DNA from: Actinomycetospora sp. TBRC 11914
GTDB taxonomy: Bacteria; Actinomycetota; Actinomycetes; Mycobacteriales; Pseudonocardiaceae
Length of the DNA stretch: 64,000 nt
Reading direction: 5' to 3'
Assembly: GCF_012933465.1 (NCBI RefSeq)
Contig: NZ_JABBND010000017.1
Location: 62,001 to 126,000, forward strand
Positions 55,251 through 64,000 of the stretch are shown here, piece after piece; within the stretch, counting starts at the first letter, position 1; every line of letters starts with the position of its first letter. Both the position numbers and the translations under genes were made by a program. A model generated the notes under the pieces. The model was not told the origin of the DNA. It ran no database searches and was given only the letters and a program-made list of their open reading frames with translations.

Positions 55251-55766
55251 CTACTCCCAGCGCCGGTGGATGCTCGAGCCCCGCCGCGAGACGTCGACCC
55301 CGTACACGTGCAGCGAGATCGCCGTGTCGTCGCCGGAGTTGGTCACCCGATGGATGTCACCGGGTGGGAGGAGGCCGGTGACGGTGCCCGGGCCGGCCAC
55401 CGCGGTGCCGTCGACGACGGGCCGCCCGCCCTCCAGGCGGTAGCGGGTCTCGTGCTCCTCGCCGGTGTGCACGCCGACCACGCACCACGACAGGTGGTCG
55501 TGGATCGCGGTGCTCTGTCCCGGCAGCCACACCATCGCCACGAGCGAGAAGGCACCGTCGGGCGCGACGTGCAGCAGGTGCGCGCGGTAGCCGGCCGGGT
55601 CACCGTGGCGCTGGTCGTCGGTCAGGAGATCCGGACATCGGACGTGGCGCTCCAGGGCGTCACAGACGGCGTCGACGCGGGGCCGGCCGTCGCGGGTGCG
55701 GCGCACGGCGGCGTCGAGGTCGTCGACGAGGGCGGTCAGGGGGCTGGTGGTCAGGATGGCGGTCAT
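55251..55766 (-). CDS. Cysteine dioxygenase-type cupin (thiol dioxygenase)
   Basis: 171 residues. LVAMVWLPGQSTAIHDHLSWCVVGVHTG contains the HxH iron ligands, and SLHVYGVD supplies the third His. GLLPPGDIHRVTN is the second cupin strand region. It matches CDO-type enzymes that oxidise cysteine or 3-mercaptopropionate to sulfinates with O2. It is 26 bp after the GNAT gene and so co-transcribed from the TGGGCA-type promoter at 56.4 kb (inferred). Confidence 0.87.
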   Translation of the reverse strand: MTAILTTSPLTALVDDLDAAVRRTRDGRPRVDAVCDALERHVRCPDLLTDDQRHGDPAGYRAHLLHVAPDGAFSLVAMVWLPGQSTAIHDHLSWCVVGVHTGEEHETRYRLEGGRPVVDGTAVAGPGTVTGLLPPGDIHRVTNSGDDTAISLHVYGVDVSRRGSSIHRRWE

Positions 55767-55792: not shown

Positions 55793-56341
55793 TCACGCGG
55801 CGGTGGTGGTCTCCGCGGCGCGGAGCGAGGCGGTCAGGGTGGTCTCGGGGCCGTTCGTGACGACGTCGACGACCGGCAGCACGGACGCGAGCAGCACCCG
55901 CATCCCGGTGTTCTCGGTCAGCACGTCGGCGACGAGGCGGTCGTAACCGGCGGCCCGTCCGCGCGTGGCGACGGCGAGCAGCAGCCGCCGCCCGACCCCG
56001 CGGCCCTGCCAGGCGTCGACCACCTCGACGGCGAGCTCGGCGTGGTGCGCGTCGAGGCCGACGAGCCGGGCGATGCCGATCGGGGTGCCGTCCGGCGCGA
56101 AGGCCGCGACCGCGAGGTGGGTGTGCCCGTCGACGGCGGCGAGCGCCCGGCGCACCCCCGGCGTCAGCCGGGGCGTCGCGCCGTGGAAGCGCAGGGCCCG
56201 GCTCCGCGGCGACAGCCCCGCGAAGACGGCGTCGAGCACGTCGAGCTCGCCGTCGCCGAGCTCGCGCACGGTGACGTCGGGCGGTCGGGGACGGCGGCGG
56301 CGCCGGGCCGTCGTCGGGAGCGGGATCACGGTGGCGGTCAT
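55793..56341 (-). CDS. GNAT-family N-acetyltransferase
   Basis: 182 residues from the ATG at 56341. TVRELGDGELDVLDAVFAGLS opens the GNAT fold. AELAVEVVDAWQGRGVGRRL is motif A with the acetyl-CoA QGRGVG loop, and DVLTENTGMRVLLAS follows. It resembles the stand-alone GNATs associated with acyl-CoA-synthetase regulation and stress operons. The acceptor is unknown. It precedes the thiol dioxygenase in the same operon. Confidence 0.87.
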   Translation of the reverse strand: MTATVIPLPTTARRRRRPRPPDVTVRELGDGELDVLDAVFAGLSPRSRALRFHGATPRLTPGVRRALAAVDGHTHLAVAAFAPDGTPIGIARLVGLDAHHAELAVEVVDAWQGRGVGRRLLLAVATRGRAAGYDRLVADVLTENTGMRVLLASVLPVVDVVTNGPETTLTASLRAAETTTAA

Positions 56342-56391: not shown

Positions 56392-56459
56392 AGCGTGGGC
56401 GCGGCGCACCCGCCGCCGCGTCGGTGGTCGTGGCCCATGTCGGGCGGCCACGTCGCCCA
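56392..56459 (-). promoter_or_regulatory. TGGGC-pair promoter, minus strand (GNAT/thiol dioxygenase)
   Basis: On the minus strand, TGGGCG and TGGGCC lie 22 bp apart (complements of GCCCA at 56455-56459 and 56433-56437), then CCGACG, then CACGCT at the -10-equivalent position (56392-56397). The layout matches the other four promoters; the second box is one base off TGGGCA. Confidence 0.5.
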
Positions 56460-56504
56460 TGCCGGCCGGGACGCGGCCGGGTCGGTAGGCAAGCGCCGTC
56501 GAGG

Positions 56505-56571
56505 TGGGCAACGGGGCCGGCGGGATGGGCACGCGTCGCCGATGCCCGGGGTCCGGCGGTCTTCCTAGCGT
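56505..56571 (+). promoter_or_regulatory. TGGGCA-pair promoter of the flavoprotein gene
   Basis: TGGGCA at 56505 and 56526 (21 bp apart), GCCGATGCCC over the presumed -35, and TAGCGT (56566-56571) as -10 within CCTAGC. The start codon is 33 bp further. The same layout occurs at 61.1 and 63.8 kb. Confidence 0.65.
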
Positions 56572-56604
56572 TCGGCGTCATCCACTCCCGGACCCACGAA
56601 GGGG

Positions 56605-57873
56605 ATGACGACGATGACCGAGGGAACGACGATCGTGATCGGCGCCGGCCAGGCCGGCCTCGCGATGAGCCGCTGCCTGACCGCCCGCGGGATGCACCAC
56701 GTGGTGCTCGAGAGGGGCCGGATCGGCCAGCGGTGGCGCCACGAACGGTGGGACTCCTTCACCCTGCTCAGCCCGAACTGGCAGACCCGGCTCCCCGGCC
56801 GGCGCTACACCGGCGCCGACCCGGACGGCTTCATGACCGGCACCGAGGTCGCCGACATGCTCGAGGGGTACGCCGCGGAGTCGGCGGCGCCGGTGTGCGA
56901 GGGCGTCACGGTCCGCTCCGTCGCGCGGATCGGGCGCACCTGGCGGATCCGCACCGACGCGGGGGACCTGTACGCCCCGTCGGTCGTCGTCGCGACCGGC
57001 GACCTCGACCGCCCGGCGATCCCCGCCCTCGCCGACTCCCTGCCCGTCGGGATCACCCAGCTGCACACCAGCGGGTACCGCAACCCGGAGCAGCCGGCGC
57101 CCGGTGCGGTCCTCGTCGTCGGCGCCGGGCCGTCGGGCCAGCAGATCGCCGACGAGCTCGCCCGGGCCGGGCGCACCGTGCACCTGGCCGTCGGCCGGCA
57201 CAAGGGCCTGCCGCGGCGCTACCGCGGGCAGGACACCTACTGGTGGATGGACCGCATGGGCACCCTGTCGCGCACCGTCGACTCCCTGCCCGACCCGACC
57301 GCCACCCGCACCCCGAACGCGGTGCTCACTGGCGGCACGCGCGACCTCGACCTGCACCGGCTCGTGGCCGACGGGGTCGAGCCGCACGGCCGCCTGGAGT
57401 CGGTGCACGGCGGCACGCTGACGTTCGACGACGGGCTCCCGGCGATGCTCGCCGAGGCCGACGACAACGTCGAGCGCTTCCGGACGAAGGTCGACCGCTG
57501 GATCGCCGCCCAGGGGCTCGACGTGCCGGAGGACGCGCCGTGGGTCCGCCGGTCCGCGCCCTGGGCCCAGGCGGCGTCGTCGACGCTCGACCTGCGGGCG
57601 GCCGGCATCACCACCGTCATCTGGGCCACCGGCTTCCGCCGCGACTTCTCGTGGATCCACGCGCCGGTCCTCGACGCGGCCGGGGAGCCGGTGCACCGGC
57701 GCGGTATCACCGACGCCCCGGGCCTGTACTTCCTTGGGCTGAAGTGGCAGTACCGGCGCTCGTCGAGCTTCCTCGACGGCGTGGGTACCGACGCCGAGTA
57801 CCTGGCGCGCCATCTCGTCCAGGAGCGGACGCAGGACCCCGACGGGCTCTCGGAGCTCGCGGTCGCGGCCTGA
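56605..57873 (+). CDS. Flavin-dependent monooxygenase/CzcO-like flavoprotein
   Basis: 422 residues. TIVIGAGQAGLAMSRCLTARG (FAD) and VLVVGAGPSGQQIADELARAG (NAD(P)H) are two intact Rossmann motifs. RIGQRWRHERWDSFTLLSPNW is typical of the CzcO/'K+ transport flavoprotein' group, and TTVIWATGF is the ATG-type motif. It oxidises an unknown soft nucleophile or small substrate. An ATG at 56614 has better spacing from AAGGGG. Its promoter belongs to the TGGGCA set, tying it to OsmC, thiol dioxygenase and LuxR genes. Confidence 0.87.
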   Translation: MTTMTEGTTIVIGAGQAGLAMSRCLTARGMHHVVLERGRIGQRWRHERWDSFTLLSPNWQTRLPGRRYTGADPDGFMTGTEVADMLEGYAAESAAPVCEGVTVRSVARIGRTWRIRTDAGDLYAPSVVVATGDLDRPAIPALADSLPVGITQLHTSGYRNPEQPAPGAVLVVGAGPSGQQIADELARAGRTVHLAVGRHKGLPRRYRGQDTYWWMDRMGTLSRTVDSLPDPTATRTPNAVLTGGTRDLDLHRLVADGVEPHGRLESVHGGTLTFDDGLPAMLAEADDNVERFRTKVDRWIAAQGLDVPEDAPWVRRSAPWAQAASSTLDLRAAGITTVIWATGFRRDFSWIHAPVLDAAGEPVHRRGITDAPGLYFLGLKWQYRRSSSFLDGVGTDAEYLARHLVQERTQDPDGLSELAVAA

Positions 57874-58096
57874 GCAGCTTCCGGACGCCGGGCGACGGTC
57901 ACCGTCGCCCGGCGTCGTCGTGCGTGCGGGCGGGGTGCCGTTTCGAGCGGAGGGCACCATCGCGCGGAAGAGCCGGCGGTGGGCGCCCAGGGCCCGGACC
58001 ACACGAGCGAGGGAGGCCGTCAGGCGCGGCCGCCGCCCGGTCGTCGTCGCTCCCGACGATGCTCACCGCTGCGCCGCCCCCGGTCGGGAACGGCGC

Positions 58097-58371
58097 ACCT
58101 GCGCGCGGCGCACACACGGCAGCGCTGGACCGGTGGTGGTCCGGCCGCATCTGTGTGCGGCGCACGCACGGCGGTCCTGGCCGGGTGGTGGTCTGGCCGC
58201 ACCTGCGCGCGGCGCACACCCGGCGGTCCCGGGCGGGCAGAGGTTCGGCCGTGCCTGCGCGTGGCACACACAGCGGTCCCGGGCCGGCCGCGTCCGGCCA
58301 CACCTGCGCGCGGCACACACGTCGGCTCCGGGCCGACAGCGTTTCGTCCGCGCCGACGCGCGCACTCACAC
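58097..58371. repeat. 52-bp-period array R3, left half (six forward cores)
   Basis: Cores like ACCTGCGCGCGGCGCACACA start at 58097, 58149, 58201, 58253, 58302 and 58352 (steps 52, 52, 52, 49, 50). The intervening ~31 bp are also related between units (GGCGGTCC..GG..G), so this is a degenerate tandem repeat. Confidence 0.82.
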
Positions 58372-58478
58372 CGGCCCCGTCGGAGGGCACCTCGGCCGTT
58401 CCGCTCTCCATCGCCGCGCGGTCGAGCGCGGACTCGTCGCCCCGCTGTGGCCGGCGATCCGGCCCGGCGCAGCTCCGC

Positions 58479-58655
58479 GTGTGTGCGCCACGCGCAGGTC
58501 TCCGCACGGGCCACCAGCGCCGCTGGCCGACTGTGTGCGCCGCGCGTAGGTCTCTGCACGGGCGATCGGCGTCGCTGCTCGAGTGTGTGTGCCACGCGTA
58601 GGTCCCCGCGCGAGCGACCGGCGCCGCTGTCCGACGGTGTGCGCCACGCGCAGGT
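58479..58655. repeat. 52-bp-period array R3, right half (four reversed cores)
   Basis: Cores like TGTGTGCGCCACGCGCAGGT end at 58499, 58551, 58603 and 58655, exact 52-bp steps, in reverse complement to the left half. Confidence 0.82.
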
Positions 58656-58770
58656 CCAGCCGCCGGTCCCTCCAGCGAGCGACCCTTCGCTCGACACGCC
58701 ACGCGGGGAACGGGCACGACGAACACCCGCCCCGGCGGCGGCCGGAGCGGGTGTTGCGGTGCGACGAAGG

Positions 58771-59166
58771 TCAGGCGGACGAGTGCTCCTGGAGACGCAG
58801 CAGCGCGAGCGCGGTGGTGATGCGCCGGCCGAGCCGGCCGTGGTCCCGTGGTCCCGGAGCACCGTCATCCGGCCCTGGACCACCCGGGTCGGCGCGGTCG
58901 TGCAGGTCGAGCAGGATCGCGAGGTGCTCCCGCAGCGGCTCGTCGAGCGGCTCGAGGGCCAGGGCCCCGAGGACCTCGCCGGCCGGCGCGGCCGGGTCGA
59001 GGCCGACCGCGCGCCAGTGCAGGCCGCGGGCGACGTCGAGCGCCTCGTCCTGGGAGAAGCCGCGCCAGAGGAACGCGGCGGTGGCGTAGCGCTGGATGCG
59101 GTCGGTCTCGTCGGCGGCGAGGCTGCCGAGACGGACGTCCAGTTCGGGATCGACGATGGTGATCAC
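58771..59166 (-). CDS. Hypothetical protein in FAD-monooxygenase operon
   Basis: 131 residues, not assigned to a family. The N-terminus ITIVDPELDVRLGSLAADET is followed by helical stretches (YATAAFLWRGFSQDEALDVARGL). It is acidic, with no membrane segment. The GTG at 59166 is 4 nt after the FAD monooxygenase stop, so the two are co-transcribed. A role with that enzyme is plausible but unproven. Confidence 0.65.
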   Translation of the reverse strand: MITIVDPELDVRLGSLAADETDRIQRYATAAFLWRGFSQDEALDVARGLHWRAVGLDPAAPAGEVLGALALEPLDEPLREHLAILLDLHDRADPGGPGPDDGAPGPRDHGRLGRRITTALALLRLQEHSSA

Positions 59167-59170
59167 GGCG

Positions 59171-60340
59171 TCACGCCGCCAGCTCGACGGGCCGGTCGAG
59201 AGCGCGCAGGGCCTCGACCTCGGGCTGCATCGACCGGCTCAGGGCCGGCAGCAGGTCGCGGAGCTCGGTGAGGTCCCACGCGTACGACGCGAGCCGCTCG
59301 GTGATCGCCTCGAGCTCGGCCGAGAGCCGGTCCCGGGTCTCCTGGTAGCCGCGCAGGGCGTCGCGCTGGGCCGCACCCGGTGACGGCGCGGCCAGGACCG
59401 CCCGCGCGAGCAGCTCGGCGTCGCGCAGCGCGTCGGTGATGCCGTGGGCGGTCAGCGGGTCCTTGAAGTAGCCGGCGTCGCCGACGAGCGCCCACCCCGG
59501 TCCCGCGGCCGTCCGCCGGTGGCCCGGCACGCCACGGAAGCCGCGCACCGGACCCTCCATCCGTCCGCCGGCCATCTCCCCGGCGAGCGCGGGGGCGGCC
59601 TCGGCCAACAGGTCCCGGTAGCCGGTGTCGAGCTGTCCGCGCAGCGTGTCGAAGCGGTCGGACGGGGCCCCGGCCCACACGCACGCGCGGCCGTCGTTGG
59701 TCGGGACGACGCCGGCGGTGACGCCGGGACCGTAGAACCAGCGGTAGCGGTCGAGCCCGAACCCGGACCAGTAAGCGAGCAGCAGCGCGCCGGAGGCGTG
59801 GCCGCGGTGCTCGTACCCGGCGTCGACGGCCTCGGCGATCGTCGAGCGCCGCCCGTCGGCGCCGATCGTGATCGGGGCGAGCGCGGTGCCGGTCGTGCCG
59901 GTCCCGCGCTCGGCGTACTCGACGCCGCGCACCCGGCCCGAGGCGTCGCGCACGACGTCGGTGACGCGGGTGGCGCACCGGACGTCGGCGCCGCGGGCCT
60001 GGGCCGCGTCGAGCAGGACCGGGTCGAGGACCGTGCGGCGGGGCGCGCGGAGCGGGGTGCTGCCCGGCCGCGCGGCCACGGTGACGGTGTCCTCGCCGTA
60101 GTGGAACTCGGTGGCGCGGATCGCCGGGGTCCCGGCCGCGACGATCTCCTCGAGGAGACCCCACCGGTCGAGCTGGACGACGGCGCCCCGCATCAGGGCG
60201 TGGGTGGAGAGGGTGTCCGTGCCGCGGCGGCCGGACTCGAGCAGCAGGACGTCGAGGCCGGCCTCGGCGAGCAGCAGGGCGGTGGCGGCGCCGGCACATC
60301 GGCCGCCGACCACGACCGCGTCGTGATGGGTCGTACTCAT
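59171..60340 (-). CDS. FAD-dependent monooxygenase (geranylgeranyl reductase/PHBH-like fold)
   Basis: 389 residues from the ATG at 60340. DAVVVGGRCAGAATALLLAEAG is a GxGxxG variant (GGRCAG) common in this subgroup. APITIGADGRRSTIAEAV is the DG motif, and WALVGDAGYFKDPLTAHGITDAL is the GD motif. Such proteins act on lipid or phenolic substrates. It follows the OsmC gene by 69 bp on the same strand, so transcription from the OsmC promoter is likely. Confidence 0.87.
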   Translation of the reverse strand: MSTTHHDAVVVGGRCAGAATALLLAEAGLDVLLLESGRRGTDTLSTHALMRGAVVQLDRWGLLEEIVAAGTPAIRATEFHYGEDTVTVAARPGSTPLRAPRRTVLDPVLLDAAQARGADVRCATRVTDVVRDASGRVRGVEYAERGTGTTGTALAPITIGADGRRSTIAEAVDAGYEHRGHASGALLLAYWSGFGLDRYRWFYGPGVTAGVVPTNDGRACVWAGAPSDRFDTLRGQLDTGYRDLLAEAAPALAGEMAGGRMEGPVRGFRGVPGHRRTAAGPGWALVGDAGYFKDPLTAHGITDALRDAELLARAVLAAPSPGAAQRDALRGYQETRDRLSAELEAITERLASYAWDLTELRDLLPALSRSMQPEVEALRALDRPVELAA

Positions 60341-60409
60341 CGTCGATCGGGTCCTTCCCGTGGGGCCGGGGCACCGGCCGGGCTCGCGGCCCGGCCGGTG
60401 CCGCAGGGG

Positions 60410-60982
60410 TCAGTCGGTGACGACGTCCACCGAGACGGGGACACCGCGGGTGACGCTGTCGAAGACCACCGAGCGGTCCACCCCGCGCTGCACGACCTCG
60501 CGCAGCTTCTCCTCGGGGGCCTCGCCGGTGATGCGGATCGTCATGCCGATCTGCTCGAACCCGTTGCGGACCTCCCGCGAGAGGCCCATCGCGCCCTGGA
60601 CGTCGAGGTCGCCCTCGAGCGTCGAGGACACCGAGGTCAGCGGGACCTTGCGGGCGGACGCCGCGTAGACCAGCGACGTCGTCACGCAGGCCGCGAGCGC
60701 GTGGAGCAGGAACTCGGCGGGGTTCGGGCCGTCGTCCTCGCCGATGAGGATCGCGGGCTCGCCGGCGTCGAGGGTGAACGGCACGTCGCGGGAGGTGTCC
60801 TCGCCGCCCGCGGCGTAGAAGTCCTTGATCGTGCTGCGGTTGTGCGAGCCCCGGATCCACTCGTTGGTCGCCCGGAAGCGGAACCGGGCGAGGTCGGGCT
60901 GGGCCTTCAGCGCGTCGAGCGTGGCGAACAGGGTCGTGGTGTCCACGCCGTTGCGGACGGTGTGGGTGACGGTCTCGGTCAT
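60410..60982 (-). CDS. OsmC-family protein with a single Cys
   Basis: 190 residues from the ATG at 60982. NEWIRGSHNRSTIKDFYAAG, ILIGEDDGPNPAEFLLHALAACVTTSL and RSVVFDSVTRGVPVSV are OsmC/Ohr-like motifs. The first redox Cys (AACVTT) is present. The second position is Ser in VVFDSVT, so classical two-Cys peroxidase chemistry is not expected. It may work with a low-molecular-weight thiol such as mycothiol or have another role. A TGGGCA-type promoter drives it. Confidence 0.86.
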   Translation of the reverse strand: MTETVTHTVRNGVDTTTLFATLDALKAQPDLARFRFRATNEWIRGSHNRSTIKDFYAAGGEDTSRDVPFTLDAGEPAILIGEDDGPNPAEFLLHALAACVTTSLVYAASARKVPLTSVSSTLEGDLDVQGAMGLSREVRNGFEQIGMTIRITGEAPEEKLREVVQRGVDRSVVFDSVTRGVPVSVDVVTD

Positions 60983-61020
60983 GGTGTCTCCTCGGTCGTG
61001 TCGGTCTGGCGACGACCGAG

Positions 61021-61088
61021 ACACTCCCGGCGGGGGGTGGTCCCCGACATCGGCAAGCCCTGCCCAACCCGGGCCGCGCCACTGCCCA
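61021..61088 (-). promoter_or_regulatory. TGGGCA-pair promoter, minus strand (osmC operon)
   Basis: TGCCCA at 61083-61088 and 61061-61066 are minus-strand TGGGCA boxes 22 bp apart. Next come GCCGATGTC and GAGTGT at the -10 position (complement of 61021-61026). The OsmC start is ~40 bp beyond. Confidence 0.6.
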
Positions 61089-61120
61089 GGTCGACCCCGC
61101 CGGGCACCGTCACCAGGAGA

Positions 61121-61186
61121 TGGGCAGCCCCACCGGTGATGTGGGCACCGGCATCGGTGTCCCGCCGGCTCGCGCGTTCCTAGCCT
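61121..61186 (+). promoter_or_regulatory. TGGGCA-pair promoter of the LuxR gene
   Basis: TGGGCA at 61121 and 61142 (21 bp apart), GCATCGGTGTCCC downstream, and TAGCCT (61181-61186) as -10 within CCTAGC. The ATG is 32 bp on. This would make the LuxR gene autoregulated. Confidence 0.65.
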
Positions 61187-61217
61187 CGTCCCCGCAGGTC
61201 GGAGGAGGGGATGCACC

Positions 61218-63815
61218 ATGACGGGGGCACTGCTGGAGCGCGACGCCGAGCTGGCCGCGCTGGGATCGGCCCTCCGGGACGCCGAGGCCGGCGCCGGCTC
61301 GGTGGTGCTGCTCTCGGGCGAGGCGGGGATCGGCAAGACCAGCCTCGTCCGCGCGTTCACCGGCGACGCCGACGACCGCGCCCGCGTGCTGTCCGGGGCG
61401 TGCGACGACCTCCTGACCCCCCGCACGCTGGGGCCGCTGCGCGACGCGGCGCGCTCGGGGGCCACCGCCCTCGCCGAGGCCCTGCACGCCGACGACCGCG
61501 ACGCGATCCTCGCCGCGGCCCGCGCCGAGCTCGCCGGGCCCGGCGGGCCGACGGTGCTCGTCGTGGAGGACCTGCACTGGGCCGACGACGCCACCCTCGA
61601 CGTCGTGCGCTACCTCGGCCGGCGGATCGCCGACCTGCCGGCGGTGCTCCTGCTGACGTTCCGGGACGAGGAGGTGGGTGCCTCCCTGCGGCGCGTCCTC
61701 GGTGCGCTCGGCGGCCCCTCGGTCCACCGGCTGGCCCTCGCGCGGCTCTCCCGCACCGCCGTGGCCCGCTGGTCGGAGGCCACCACCGTCACCTCGGCCG
61801 CGCTCTACCAGCTCACCCGCGGCAACCCGTTCTACGTCTCCGAGGTGCTCGCGAGCTCCCCGCCCGGCGACCGTGTCGAGGTGCCCCCGACCGTGGTGGA
61901 CGCCGTCCTCGCCCGCACCCGCCGCCTCGACGACGACGTCCAGGCCGCGCTCGACCAGCTCTCGGTGGTCCCCGGCGAGGTCGACCTCCCGCTGGCGCGG
62001 GCCCTCGTGGGCGACCTCGCCGTGCTCGGCGCGGCCGAGACGGCGCGGGTGCTGGAGGTCCGCGTGGACGCGGTCGCCTTCCGCCACGAGCTGGCCCGCC
62101 GGGCCGTGCAGAGCGCGCTCCCGACGACGTCACGGCTGGCGCTGAACGCGCGGGTGCTCGCCGTGCTGGTCGAGCGCCCCGACGTCGACCCCGGCCGGCT
62201 CGTCCACCACGCGGTGGGCTCCGGGGACGACGCGGCCGTGGTCCGGTACGGCCCGCGGGCGGCCCGGGAGGCCGAGCGGGTCGGCGCCCACGCCCAGGAG
62301 ATCGCGACCTACGAGCCGGTGCTGGCGCGCGCGTCCCTGCTCGACCCGGACGAGCACGCGGCGATCCTGCAGCGGTGCTGCGCCGCCCACTTCTCCCTCG
62401 ACCACCAGGCCGCCGCGCTCGTCGCGGGGGAGGCGGCGGTGCGCCTGCGTGAGGGGCTCGGCGATCCCGCCGCGCTCGGCGGAGCCCTCATCCCGCTCGG
62501 CCCGACCCTCTGGGCGCTGACGCGGCCCCGCGAGGCGCTCGCGACCGCGGCGCGCGCCGTGGCCCTCCTCGAGCCCGCCGGCGACTCGCCGGCCCTCGCG
62601 GTCGCGATGGCCTACGACGGCCTGCTGCGCTCCACGCTCGACCGCCACGCCGAGGCGCTCGCGCTCGCCGCGGCCGCCCTGCCGATGGCCCTCCGCCTCG
62701 GCATCCCCGAGATCGAGGGCCTGGTCCGGGTGCTGTGCGGCCGCCTCCGCGCGCTCGTCGACGACCCGGAAGGGTTCGACGACCTCGCGGACGGCCGCCG
62801 CCTCGCCGCCGCCGGCGGGCACCACCTGTGGGTCATGTTCGGCTACGTCCTCGCCGTGCAGGACCTGTGGGAGCTCGGCCGCTGGGCCGAGGCCGTCGAG
62901 GTCGGCGACGAGGGCCTGGCGTACGCCTCGGAGCGCGAGCTCGACCTGTTCACCGACCACCTCCTCGCGCACCGGTACCGCTGGCTGGGCCTGCGCGGGG
63001 ACCGGGAGGCGGCCGAGGCCGGGCTGCGCGGCCTGGTCGGGCACCGCGACGGCGGGGAGACCGCCGGGACCCGCTACTGCCTGCCCGGCCTCGCCCGGCT
63101 GCTGGTGCGGCGCGGCGCCGAGGACGCGGACGAGGTGCTCGCGTGGGCGCGGGACTACGCCGACCGGGCGGACAGCCGCTACGAACTGGCGCCCACCGGC
63201 CTCGCCGAGATCGAGCACGCCTGGCTGCGCGACGACCACGAGCGGGCGCACCGCGTGGCCGCCCGGCTCGAGGAGCGGCTCGCCGGGCCCGGTCCGGCCC
63301 GGCAGCGCGCCGAGCTGCGGCGCTGGCGACGGCGGGCCGGGGAGGACGTCGGTCCGTTCGACGGGTGCCCGGAGCCGTGGGCGGCCGGGCTGCGCGGTGA
63401 CTGGGAGGCGGCCGCGGCGGCGTGGCGGGAGCAGGGGCTGCGCTACGAGGAGGCCCTGGAGCTCGCCGACTCCGGCGAGGTGGGGCCCACCGTCGAGGCC
63501 CTCGCCCTCCTCGACGACCTCGGCGCCGGCCCGGCCGCGGCCCGCGTCCGGCGCCGGTTGCGCGAGCTGGGGGTGACCTCGGTGCCGCGCGGCCCGGTGC
63601 CGGCGACGCGGGCCAACCCCTGCGGGCTGACCGACCGGCAGATGGCGGTGCTGCGCGAGCTCGCCGACGGGCGGACCAACGCCGAGATCGCCTCCGGGAT
63701 GGTGGTGTCGGTCCGCACGGTCGACCACCACGTCTCGGCCGTCCTGGCGAAGCTCGGCGTGTCCAGCCGCAGGGAGGCCGTCGCCGCCGCGGCGCGGCTC
63801 GGGGTGACCGCCTGA
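61218..63815 (+). CDS. LAL-type LuxR-family regulator with AAA ATPase domain
   Basis: An 865-residue protein. N-terminal LERDAELAALGSAL, Walker A GEAGIGKT at 34-41, and Walker B VLVVEDLHWAD at 113-123. GNPFYVSEVLASSP is a typical LAL sensor motif. A long TPR-like region follows. The C-terminal LuxR HTH is LTDRQMAVLRELADGRTNAEI then VSVRTVDHHVSAVLAKLGVS. It probably senses a small molecule and activates the TGGGCA-type promoters, including its own, since five lie within 7.5 kb around it. GGAGGAGGGG upstream supports the ATG at 61218. Confidence 0.92.
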   Translation: MTGALLERDAELAALGSALRDAEAGAGSVVLLSGEAGIGKTSLVRAFTGDADDRARVLSGACDDLLTPRTLGPLRDAARSGATALAEALHADDRDAILAAARAELAGPGGPTVLVVEDLHWADDATLDVVRYLGRRIADLPAVLLLTFRDEEVGASLRRVLGALGGPSVHRLALARLSRTAVARWSEATTVTSAALYQLTRGNPFYVSEVLASSPPGDRVEVPPTVVDAVLARTRRLDDDVQAALDQLSVVPGEVDLPLARALVGDLAVLGAAETARVLEVRVDAVAFRHELARRAVQSALPTTSRLALNARVLAVLVERPDVDPGRLVHHAVGSGDDAAVVRYGPRAAREAERVGAHAQEIATYEPVLARASLLDPDEHAAILQRCCAAHFSLDHQAAALVAGEAAVRLREGLGDPAALGGALIPLGPTLWALTRPREALATAARAVALLEPAGDSPALAVAMAYDGLLRSTLDRHAEALALAAAALPMALRLGIPEIEGLVRVLCGRLRALVDDPEGFDDLADGRRLAAAGGHHLWVMFGYVLAVQDLWELGRWAEAVEVGDEGLAYASERELDLFTDHLLAHRYRWLGLRGDREAAEAGLRGLVGHRDGGETAGTRYCLPGLARLLVRRGAEDADEVLAWARDYADRADSRYELAPTGLAEIEHAWLRDDHERAHRVAARLEERLAGPGPARQRAELRRWRRRAGEDVGPFDGCPEPWAAGLRGDWEAAAAAWREQGLRYEEALELADSGEVGPTVEALALLDDLGAGPAAARVRRRLRELGVTSVPRGPVPATRANPCGLTDRQMAVLRELADGRTNAEIASGMVVSVRTVDHHVSAVLAKLGVSSRREAVAAAARLGVTA

Positions 63816-63817
63816 TG

Positions 63818-63883
63818 TGGGCAGCGGCGGCGCCGAGATGGGCAGCGCTCGCCGACGCCCCGGCCCCGGCGCGCTCCTAGCGT
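63818..63883 (+). promoter_or_regulatory. TGGGCA-pair promoter of the last gene
   Basis: TGGGCA at 63818 and 63839 (21 bp apart), GCCGACGCC downstream, and TAGCGT (63878-63883) as -10 within CCTAGC. The next GTG is 34 bp further. Confidence 0.65.
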
Positions 63884-63917: not shown

Positions 63918-64000
63918 GTGAGCAGCACACCCGCGACCACACCCCGAGGGGCAGTTCCCCCCGGGCCCCCCGAGCAGCCCGACCTGGTGGCGCGGCTGAT
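63918..64000 (+). CDS. N-terminal fragment of an unidentified protein, cut by window end
   Basis: 27 codons from the GTG at 63918 (GGAGGAGGA at 63904-63912), reading SSTPATTPRGAVPPGPPEQP then DLVARL. The Pro/Thr-rich start gives no family. Placement behind a TGGGCA-pair promoter makes it part of the proposed regulon. Confidence 0.7.
   Translation, partial: MSSTPATTPRGAVPPGPPEQPDLVARL

Follow-up and report, generated by a model that had tools for sequence, protein, structure and literature searches.

Five promoters in a compact block of redox genes from Actinomycetospora sp. TBRC 11914 carry one operator architecture, in which two TGGGCA-type boxes in the same direction, 21 or 22 bp apart, are mostly followed by a third box, (A/G)CCGAY. 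The block lies in a 64,000-nucleotide stretch (NCBI RefSeq assembly GCF_012933465.1, contig NZ_JABBND010000017.1, positions 62,001 to 126,000; here referred to as the window) and includes the gene for LAL1, a regulator of the large ATP-binding LuxR-family (LAL) type. Co-regulation of the five promoters through this one architecture is well supported by the comparisons described here, and a LAL/LuxR protein as their regulator best explains the pattern. What is established is that the sites exist, that in this genome they are confined to the block, that they are conserved, and that LAL genes often accompany them. LAL proteins, which are roughly 800 to 1,100 amino acids (aa) in length, are numerous in actinobacteria; to our knowledge, binding sites or targets have been identified for few of them. 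Sequence alone suffices to define the site reported here, which is tied to a recognition helix and to a small recurring set of enzymes (an FMO-like flavoprotein, OsmC, a flavin adenine dinucleotide [FAD] monooxygenase, GNAT, and a thiol dioxygenase). The regulator, inducer, and pathway thus become directly testable, the motif serves to find further members, and operator and regulator can be traced separately across species.

Operator sites and promoter geometry

An earlier, sequence-only reading of the window had listed paired TGGGCA boxes at 56505, 61121, and 63818 on the plus strand and at 61061 on the minus strand, all of which are exact, and a degenerate minus-strand pair on the GNAT side, which is TGGGCG-N16-TGGGCC at 56432-56459 and departs from TGGGCA by one mismatch in each box (Table 1). 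The spacing that it gave for CCTAGC, 31 to 32 bp after the second box and followed by TAGC(G/C)T and a start codon, agrees with measurement at the three plus-strand sites: CCTAGC starts 32, 31, and 31 bp past the second box at the FMO, LAL1, and SnoaL sites, where the putative -10 hexamers TAGCGT, TAGCCT, and TAGCGT end 33, 31, and 34 nucleotides (nt) ahead of the start codon. CCTAGC is absent at both minus-strand sites. A GCCGAYG box, said to follow each plus-strand pair, is present at 56538 and 63851 and missing from the LAL1 promoter, where CATCGGTG occupies its position.

Overall, the third box is found in four of the five sites, as GCCGAYG at FMO, SnoaL, and OsmC and as ACCGACG at GNAT. 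With transcription assumed to start 7 nt after the -10 hexamer, box 1 would span -73 to -67, box 2 would span -52 to -46, and the box 3 position would span -40 to -33, such that box 3 would overlap the -35 region at the two promoters that have both a box 3 and a clear -10. At the G170 site (L026, 9597), the sequence reads TAGCGT-CGGGAC-ATG, with the start codon so near that a leaderless transcript is likely.

Clustering in the source genome

The pattern TGGGCAN{14,17}TGGGCA occurs seven times in the source genome (6,521,412 bases in 63 contigs), with four occurrences inside the 7.3-kb block, and no exact N15 pair exists in the genome outside the three in the block. The reversed pattern, used as a control with the same N{14,17} spacing, occurs 11 times. 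The Poisson probability of at least four pairs in the block is 5e-12 when the background is the three other pairs and 1e-9 when it is the control rate. With two mismatches allowed, the window holds six pairs versus a mean of 3.96 in shuffled sequence, and 20 of 100 shuffles reach six, which is not unusual. Because this loose count is unremarkable, we base the case on the exact pairs, on how they cluster, and on how they are conserved.

Two models extended the search. The first, R2, was trained on 17 sites from other genomes, which had themselves been found via the motif of the window, so that R2 is not fully independent of it. Applied to the window with filters off, R2 placed the five proposed sites as the top five (51.4, 46.1, 36.3, 18.5, and 12.4 bits; next match, 11.0 bits). 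The GNAT-side site, barely above noise, is supported mainly by the corresponding sites of relatives. Genome-wide, with 150 of 30,653 candidates scored, the SnoaL, FMO, and OsmC sites led the R2 matches (the next match had an E value of 0.09), and the LAL1 and GNAT sites were not returned. The second model, R1, built with the window sites included, found all five genome-wide (150 of 27,460 candidates scored), after which scores dropped from 37.1 to 17.4 bits. A genome-wide regulon is not supported, as neither scan gave a further strong site among its 150 scored candidates.

Conservation within Actinomycetospora

We scanned a collection of 84,980 species, which possibly does not include the source genome, with the exact pattern TGGGCAN{15,16}TGGGCAN6GCCGAYN{18,23}CTAG. 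It matched five loci, all from Actinomycetospora (straminea, endophytica, lutea twice, and succinea) and each lying upstream of a block-gene orthologue (FMO in four cases, SnoaL-MaoC in one); the second lutea locus carries the OsmC site too. In 18 genomes of the genus, a search with the flavoprotein gave 26 matches at E<=1e-40. The exact pair lies about 100 bp upstream in 6 of 6 close orthologues (73 to 100% identical) versus 0 of 20 paralogues (43 to 46% identical) anywhere in the locus, and the few two-mismatch matches of the paralogues are never upstream in the right sense. Likewise, the pair is present in 5 of 5 close OsmC orthologues (85 to 100%) versus 0 of 4 paralogues (34 to 36%). Fisher values for these contrasts are 4e-6 (FMO) and 0.008 (OsmC), with orthologues that are not independent of one another. 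The genome search and the orthologue comparison had both been suggested with the sequence-only reading, and the exact N15 pairs confined to the block, its four of seven N14-17 pairs, and the boxes kept in all close orthologues are as that reading would have it.

Across the six FMO promoters, identity is 100% over boxes 1 and 2, 92% over box 3, and 89% over the -10 stretch, and falls to 62% over the spacer and to 44% over the 60 bp upstream. Four other full blocks (L068-L071) have the full site, in a degenerate box alphabet, at their GNAT, FMO, and OsmC promoters (12 of 12). The GNAT-side site of five relatives reads T(A/G)GGTA-N16-TGGGGA-N6-ACCGACG, and MaoC genes that stand apart from SnoaL have an exact pair of their own in three of three cases, without a good box 3. 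Box spacings of 10 and 11 bp occur at two relatives' promoters. In a family-level model scan of 200 genomes, one genome besides the source genome (G480) matched at a GNAT-CDO operon (CDO, cysteine-dioxygenase-type protein), where the site is kept. Matches in G006 and G119 had no homologue of a block gene nearby and are probably due to chance.

Recurrence beyond the genus

A scan of 397 genomes of the order with the exact pair pattern gave five matches, namely, the three of the window and two in other families, versus 42 for the reversed pattern. Since the control is commoner, the number of order-level matches is no evidence; the argument lies in box 3 and the LAL neighbor. A LAL gene lies no more than about 1 kb from either site, and a box 3 is present at each, although it was outside the search pattern. 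Small SCO4226-like (PF14026) genes were also seen near both sites.

At the phylum level, R2 (396 genomes, E<=1e-3) returned 14 matches outside the window, in 10 genomes. Seven adjoin homologues of FMO (four), the FAD monooxygenase (two), or GNAT (one), all of them in four genomes of a single genus that belongs to another class. Another match (L109) is beside a LAL gene and OsmC, one (L108) is near a LuxR C terminus (51 residues matched), and five (L104, L110-L113) are at neither a block-gene homologue nor a LAL gene. At L104 (G789 contig 1, 285-354), the motif, with CCTAGCGT, stands at a gene that is no homologue of those block genes that were tested and may mark an additional target. A DNA-only motif match was found at a LAL gene in G584, and regions of G789, G574, G863, and G584 hold LAL, OsmC, and FMO together. 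When the search started from the proteins, five of eight distant FMO homologues had a site approximately 85 to 115 bp upstream; in G818 and G776, where OsmC adjoins FMO, the DNA searched contained no site and no LAL. Across 11 distant loci (163,673 bases), we counted 13 relaxed sites versus none in the reversed control and none in each of five local shuffles; these loci (L120-L128, L133, and L144) had mostly been picked for a motif match, and loci without a match, such as L129 and most of L130-L152, were left out.

LAL regulators and their recognition helix

LAL1, at 865 aa, fits the LAL size range and has both LAL domains: a C-terminal helix-turn-helix (HTH) domain (PF00196 at 804-856, E 6.5e-15, 55 bits versus a cutoff of 23.5) and an N-terminal P-loop ATPase (PF13191 AAA_16, 80.1 bits versus 32.6) with a Walker A pattern. 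It scores 28.5 bits against the NCBIfam MalT model NF003420 (cutoff, 537), with the HTH alone as the best stretch, and so is not assigned as a MalT orthologue. The only solved structures matching LAL1 are the HTH domains of VraR, DevR/DosR, ComA, and GerE. LAL2, a paralogue 55% identical to LAL1, starts about 1 kb past the end of LAL1 on the other strand.

LAL genes are found within the blocks of five of the six Actinomycetospora genomes with an FMO site and in four of the five distant regions that have FMO and OsmC homologues together. Four relatives carry LAL3 in the block (88 to 89% identical among themselves and about 45% to LAL1 and LAL2), downstream of OsmC, the FAD monooxygenase, and the hypothetical gene and on the same strand, from which it follows that LAL3 could be read from the OsmC site. 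No close LAL3 occurs in the source genome, which has LAL1 and LAL2. The block of G487 has three LALs, one of them the LAL1 orthologue (64%), whose promoter also has TGGGCA boxes; among the five other genomes, this is the only LAL1 orthologue seen inside a block, and that of G484 (65%) is outside.

All eight block LALs of the genus carry SVRTVDHHVSAVL, the LALs of four distant motif-bearing blocks carry SVRTVDHHVSAIL, and the helix stretch SVRTVDHHVSA is present in all of these. A family scan gave nine other LALs, one of which had no HTH match; in the eight with a readable HTH (L011, L012, L014-L017, L019, and L020), the stretch was absent, and a motif scan of their loci gave no match. We consider a LAL of the SVRTVDHHVSA helix type to be the likely reader of the sites. 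In the source genome, LAL1 is the best single candidate, and LAL2 is a possible one. A universal role for LAL1 is not supported, as block LALs differ between genomes.

Proposed mechanism

We think it likely that the five promoters form one local regulon read by a LAL protein, which probably acts as an activator; LAL binding, activation, start sites, and an inducer are parts that we infer as follows. Each promoter would present two TRGGYA-like half-sites in the same direction, 21 or 22 bp (two helical turns) apart and on one face of the helix, a placement indicated both by the period of 21/22 bp and by the spacings of 10 and 11 bp seen in relatives. Where the -10 is clear, which is the case at three promoters, the half-sites would be centered near -70 and -49. 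The third half-site, (A/G)CCGAY, which has the reverse sense and is present in four of five sites, would lie over the -35 region (about -40 to -33) at two promoters; read backwards (RTCGGY), it resembles TGGGC, so that box 3 may pair with box 2 in inverted orientation. ATP and an inducer would allow the LAL to oligomerize, and its GerE-type HTH domains would bind cooperatively to the boxes. The LAL oligomer would then bring in RNA polymerase at promoters without an obvious -35, replacing the -35 contact. Such replacement by a cooperative oligomer has been proposed for MalT-type activators. The targets would be GNAT with CDO; the FMO-like flavoprotein; OsmC with the FAD monooxygenase and the hypothetical protein; the LAL1 gene, which would be autoregulated through the site at its own promoter; and SnoaL with MaoC. 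LAL2 may share these sites.

A broader and distinctly more tentative idea is that an old operator outlives its regulator gene, with the three-part LAL operator retained at one set of redox enzymes in different classes of Actinomycetota and its reader exchanged among LAL paralogues with one recognition helix. The exchange would be seen in the four species whose blocks hold LAL3, in the source genome with LAL1 and LAL2, and in G487 with three LALs.

Points against the regulon and alternative readings

Several observations weigh against a LAL-read regulon of uniform sites. The third box is missing from the LAL1 promoter, there is no site at the promoter of LAL2 or directly at any of the four LAL3 genes, and the LAL in the block varies between species. 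In G482, which has an FMO site, no LAL was detected at E<=1e-70 among the 54 candidates scored out of 98, nor was one present in its 19-kb region, and in G798 the motif, FMO, and part of OsmC share a 17.4-kb contig without a LAL. The LALs at the two order-level sites have variant helices (SERTVHHHVAA and SQRTVDHHVSA), and SVRTVDHHVSA itself occurs in LALs where no site was seen (L139, L142, and L162). SnoaL promoters of four relatives show a full site, a pair without box 3, an 11-bp pair, and no site, once each. Further afield, besides the commoner reversed control in the order scan, three of eight distant FMO homologues have no site, only 3 of 15 distant OsmC loci have one upstream by the criterion used (9 have a LAL in the 1.5-kb flanks), and the two closest of these (69% and 65%) have none in the DNA searched.

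The claim of the sequence-only reading that the LuxR protein at 61218 activates all five promoters stands in part. One operator architecture at five promoters emerged from the genome count, R2, and footprinting in relatives, with LAL/LuxR regulation as the best explanation; LAL1 as the particular activator of all five is weakened by the nearby LAL2 paralogue, the helix common to block LALs, an orthologue in the block only in G487, and the G482 site without a LAL. A reader other than LAL1 alone is a substantial possibility, to which we give a little less than an even chance: LAL2, or several LALs with the same helix, would read the site interchangeably. The recognition-helix stretch common to LAL1, LAL2, and relatives' LAL3, the presence of LAL3 in four relatives' blocks, and the three LALs in one G487 block all fit this version; against it, the LAL2 promoter carries no site and the gene sits at the block edge, whereas LAL1 has a site, and the promoter of its G487 orthologue has TGGGCA boxes too.

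It is unlikely that the sites belong to another DNA-binding protein, be it a response regulator of the NarL type or a different factor with a GerE domain, and that the LAL genes are passengers or targets. The sites in G482 and on the G798 contig without a detected LAL would fit such a factor, the half-site presumably suits the GerE/NarL type in general, and the only solved structures matching LAL1, over its HTH, are domains of that type. Nevertheless, LALs are inside the blocks of five of six Actinomycetospora genomes and of four distant genomes and near both order-level sites, and no other regulator was noticed recurring among the genes annotated, which are not every gene of every block.

Less probable still is that the LAL represses from these sites. 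SCO6993, a LuxR-type LAL, is described as a negative regulator in the part of the literature consulted, and a protein bound at box 3 over the -35 region could block polymerase, but boxes 1 and 2 are upstream of that region, and Actinoplanes MalT and TpdR, in the accounts drawn on here, activate from sites at or upstream of -35 (PMC7567727, PMC6099782).

Chance repetition of GC-rich words, or recent copying of a promoter, has in our view next to no probability and is rejected on the genome count, the R2 ranking in the window, and box-versus-spacer conservation: the two-mismatch pair is no rarer than chance in the window and reversed controls are at least as frequent genome-wide and in the order scan, but four of seven exact pairs cluster in 7.3 kb of 6.52 Mb, boxes stay fixed across species while spacers diverge, and the distant loci, mostly picked for a match, hold 13 relaxed sites against none in controls.

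Genes of the block

Beyond the LAL-read promoters proposed above, the block (Table 1) continues past the window edge with the SnoaL-like gene, a MaoC-like gene, LAL2, and an SDR gene, which has no site. Pfam scores for the SnoaL-like assignment are just below and just above cutoffs. The flavoprotein scores 413.5 bits against TIGR04046 (cutoff, 498.35) and so falls short of membership; we rejected its assignment as a plain MSMEG_0569 (nitrogen-starvation) member, given this score and the 20 genus paralogues without the exact pair. Homologues of the hypothetical protein are at the equivalent place in four relatives. Typical OsmC peroxidases have two cysteines; C99 is the sole cysteine of the OsmC-like protein, and six of six relatives checked likewise have one. 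A second, paralogous OsmC-FMO pair is present elsewhere in the source genome (L065/L057, G000:C2:190900-192735) and in three other genomes of the genus (G484, G488, and G491), in each case without the exact motif pair. Between FMO and the hypothetical gene, the interval that holds LAL3 in four relatives, the intergenic stretch 57915-58722 is rich in repeats, with two mutually inverted arrays of three direct copies each at 52-bp spacing (for example, 58097-58118 and 58478-58499 are 95% complementary).

Table 1. Operator sites, putative promoter elements, and genes of the redox block (positions in the window unless a contig or locus is named; bits are from model R2)
Feature	Position	Strand	Remarks
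GNAT-CDO operator pair (M2), TGGGCG-N16-TGGGCC, N6, ACCGACG	56432..56459	-	Degenerate; 12.4 bits
FMO operator pair (P1), TGGGCA-N15-TGGGCA	56505..56531	+	Exact; 46.1 bits
FMO box 3, GCCGATG	56538-56544	+	
FMO putative -10, TAGCGT	56566..56571	+	From sequence; CTA(G/A)CGT in 6 close orthologues
OsmC-operon operator pair (M1), TGGGCA-N16-TGGGCA, box 3 GCCGATG	61061..61088	-	Exact; 36.3 bits
LAL1 operator pair (P2), TGGGCA-N15-TGGGCA, without box 3	61121..61147	+	Exact; 18.5 bits
LAL1 putative -10, TAGCCT	61181..61186	+	From sequence
SnoaL-MaoC operator pair (P3), TGGGCA-N15-TGGGCA	63818..63844	+	Exact; 51.4 bits
SnoaL box 3, GCCGACG	63851-63857	+	
SnoaL putative -10, TAGCGT	63878..63883	+	From sequence
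Cysteine-dioxygenase-type protein (CDO)	55251..55703	-	PF05995; coordinates from predicted start
GNAT acetyltransferase	55793..56341	-	PF00583
FMO-like flavoprotein	56605..57873	+	TIGR04046 (MSMEG_0569 family) match below cutoff
131-aa hypothetical protein	58771..59166	-	Downstream of FAD monooxygenase; no Pfam family
FAD-dependent monooxygenase (FAD_binding_3)	59171..60340	-	Downstream of OsmC, same strand
OsmC-like protein	60410..60982	-	Single cysteine, C99
LAL1, 865-aa LuxR-family regulator	61218..63815	+	N-terminal AAA/Walker ATPase, C-terminal GerE HTH; candidate activator
SnoaL-like gene (start only)	63918..64000	+	Exits window; complete in L008 918-1409
LAL2, LAL1 paralogue beyond window	C9:126837-129422	Opposite to LAL1	

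Comparison with known systems

The half-site core TRGGY fits what we take to be the Bacillus subtilis GerE consensus, a string not found in the literature searched. Sites of the GerE/NarL/DosR type mostly consist of inverted pairs and serve small dimeric regulators. In having one motif at several promoters around a LAL gene, and nothing else above 17.4 bits among the R1 candidates scored, the present block resembles a MalT-like local regulon. This particular operator and gene set was not found described in the literature searched, which mostly did not extend to subscription journals.

The nearest precedent found, in the parts of the reports consulted, is the region ACSP50_3900-3950 of Actinoplanes sp. 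SE50/110, which has two LuxR/MalT-like regulator genes, one of which activates most genes of the region through a motif that is upstream of 17 transcription starts, overlaps -35, and is kept in relatives (PMC7567727). Two regulator genes and a single conserved motif are common to both systems. However, the Actinoplanes motif is an inverted TCATCC-N5-GGATGA, in contrast to the direct repeats TGGGCA-N15/16-TGGGCA with (A/G)CCGAY seen here; starts were mapped and mutants made in Actinoplanes, whereas the present block is known from its DNA sequence; and the gene sets differ as far as compared (PMC7567727). Escherichia coli MalT, the LAL prototype, has an N-terminal ATP-binding site, a C-terminal HTH, and direct-repeat boxes, one of them over -35, but in these accounts its boxes have a GGA(T/G)GA core, unlike TGGGCA (PMC7567727, PMC6099782). 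The nearest single promoter is that of tpdA in Rhodococcus jostii TMP1, a degradation operon target activated by the LAL protein TpdR from direct repeats at -79 to -65 and -51 to -37 and a 7-bp inverted repeat near -35, a layout that resembles the one proposed here (PMC6099782). TpdR differs, according to the portion of the report drawn on, in its 15-nt repeats of another sequence, in having one promoter region, and in its methylpyrazine inducers (PMC6099782). Among these systems, the Actinomycetospora block is probably a further case of a known kind, the LAL/MalT-like local regulon.

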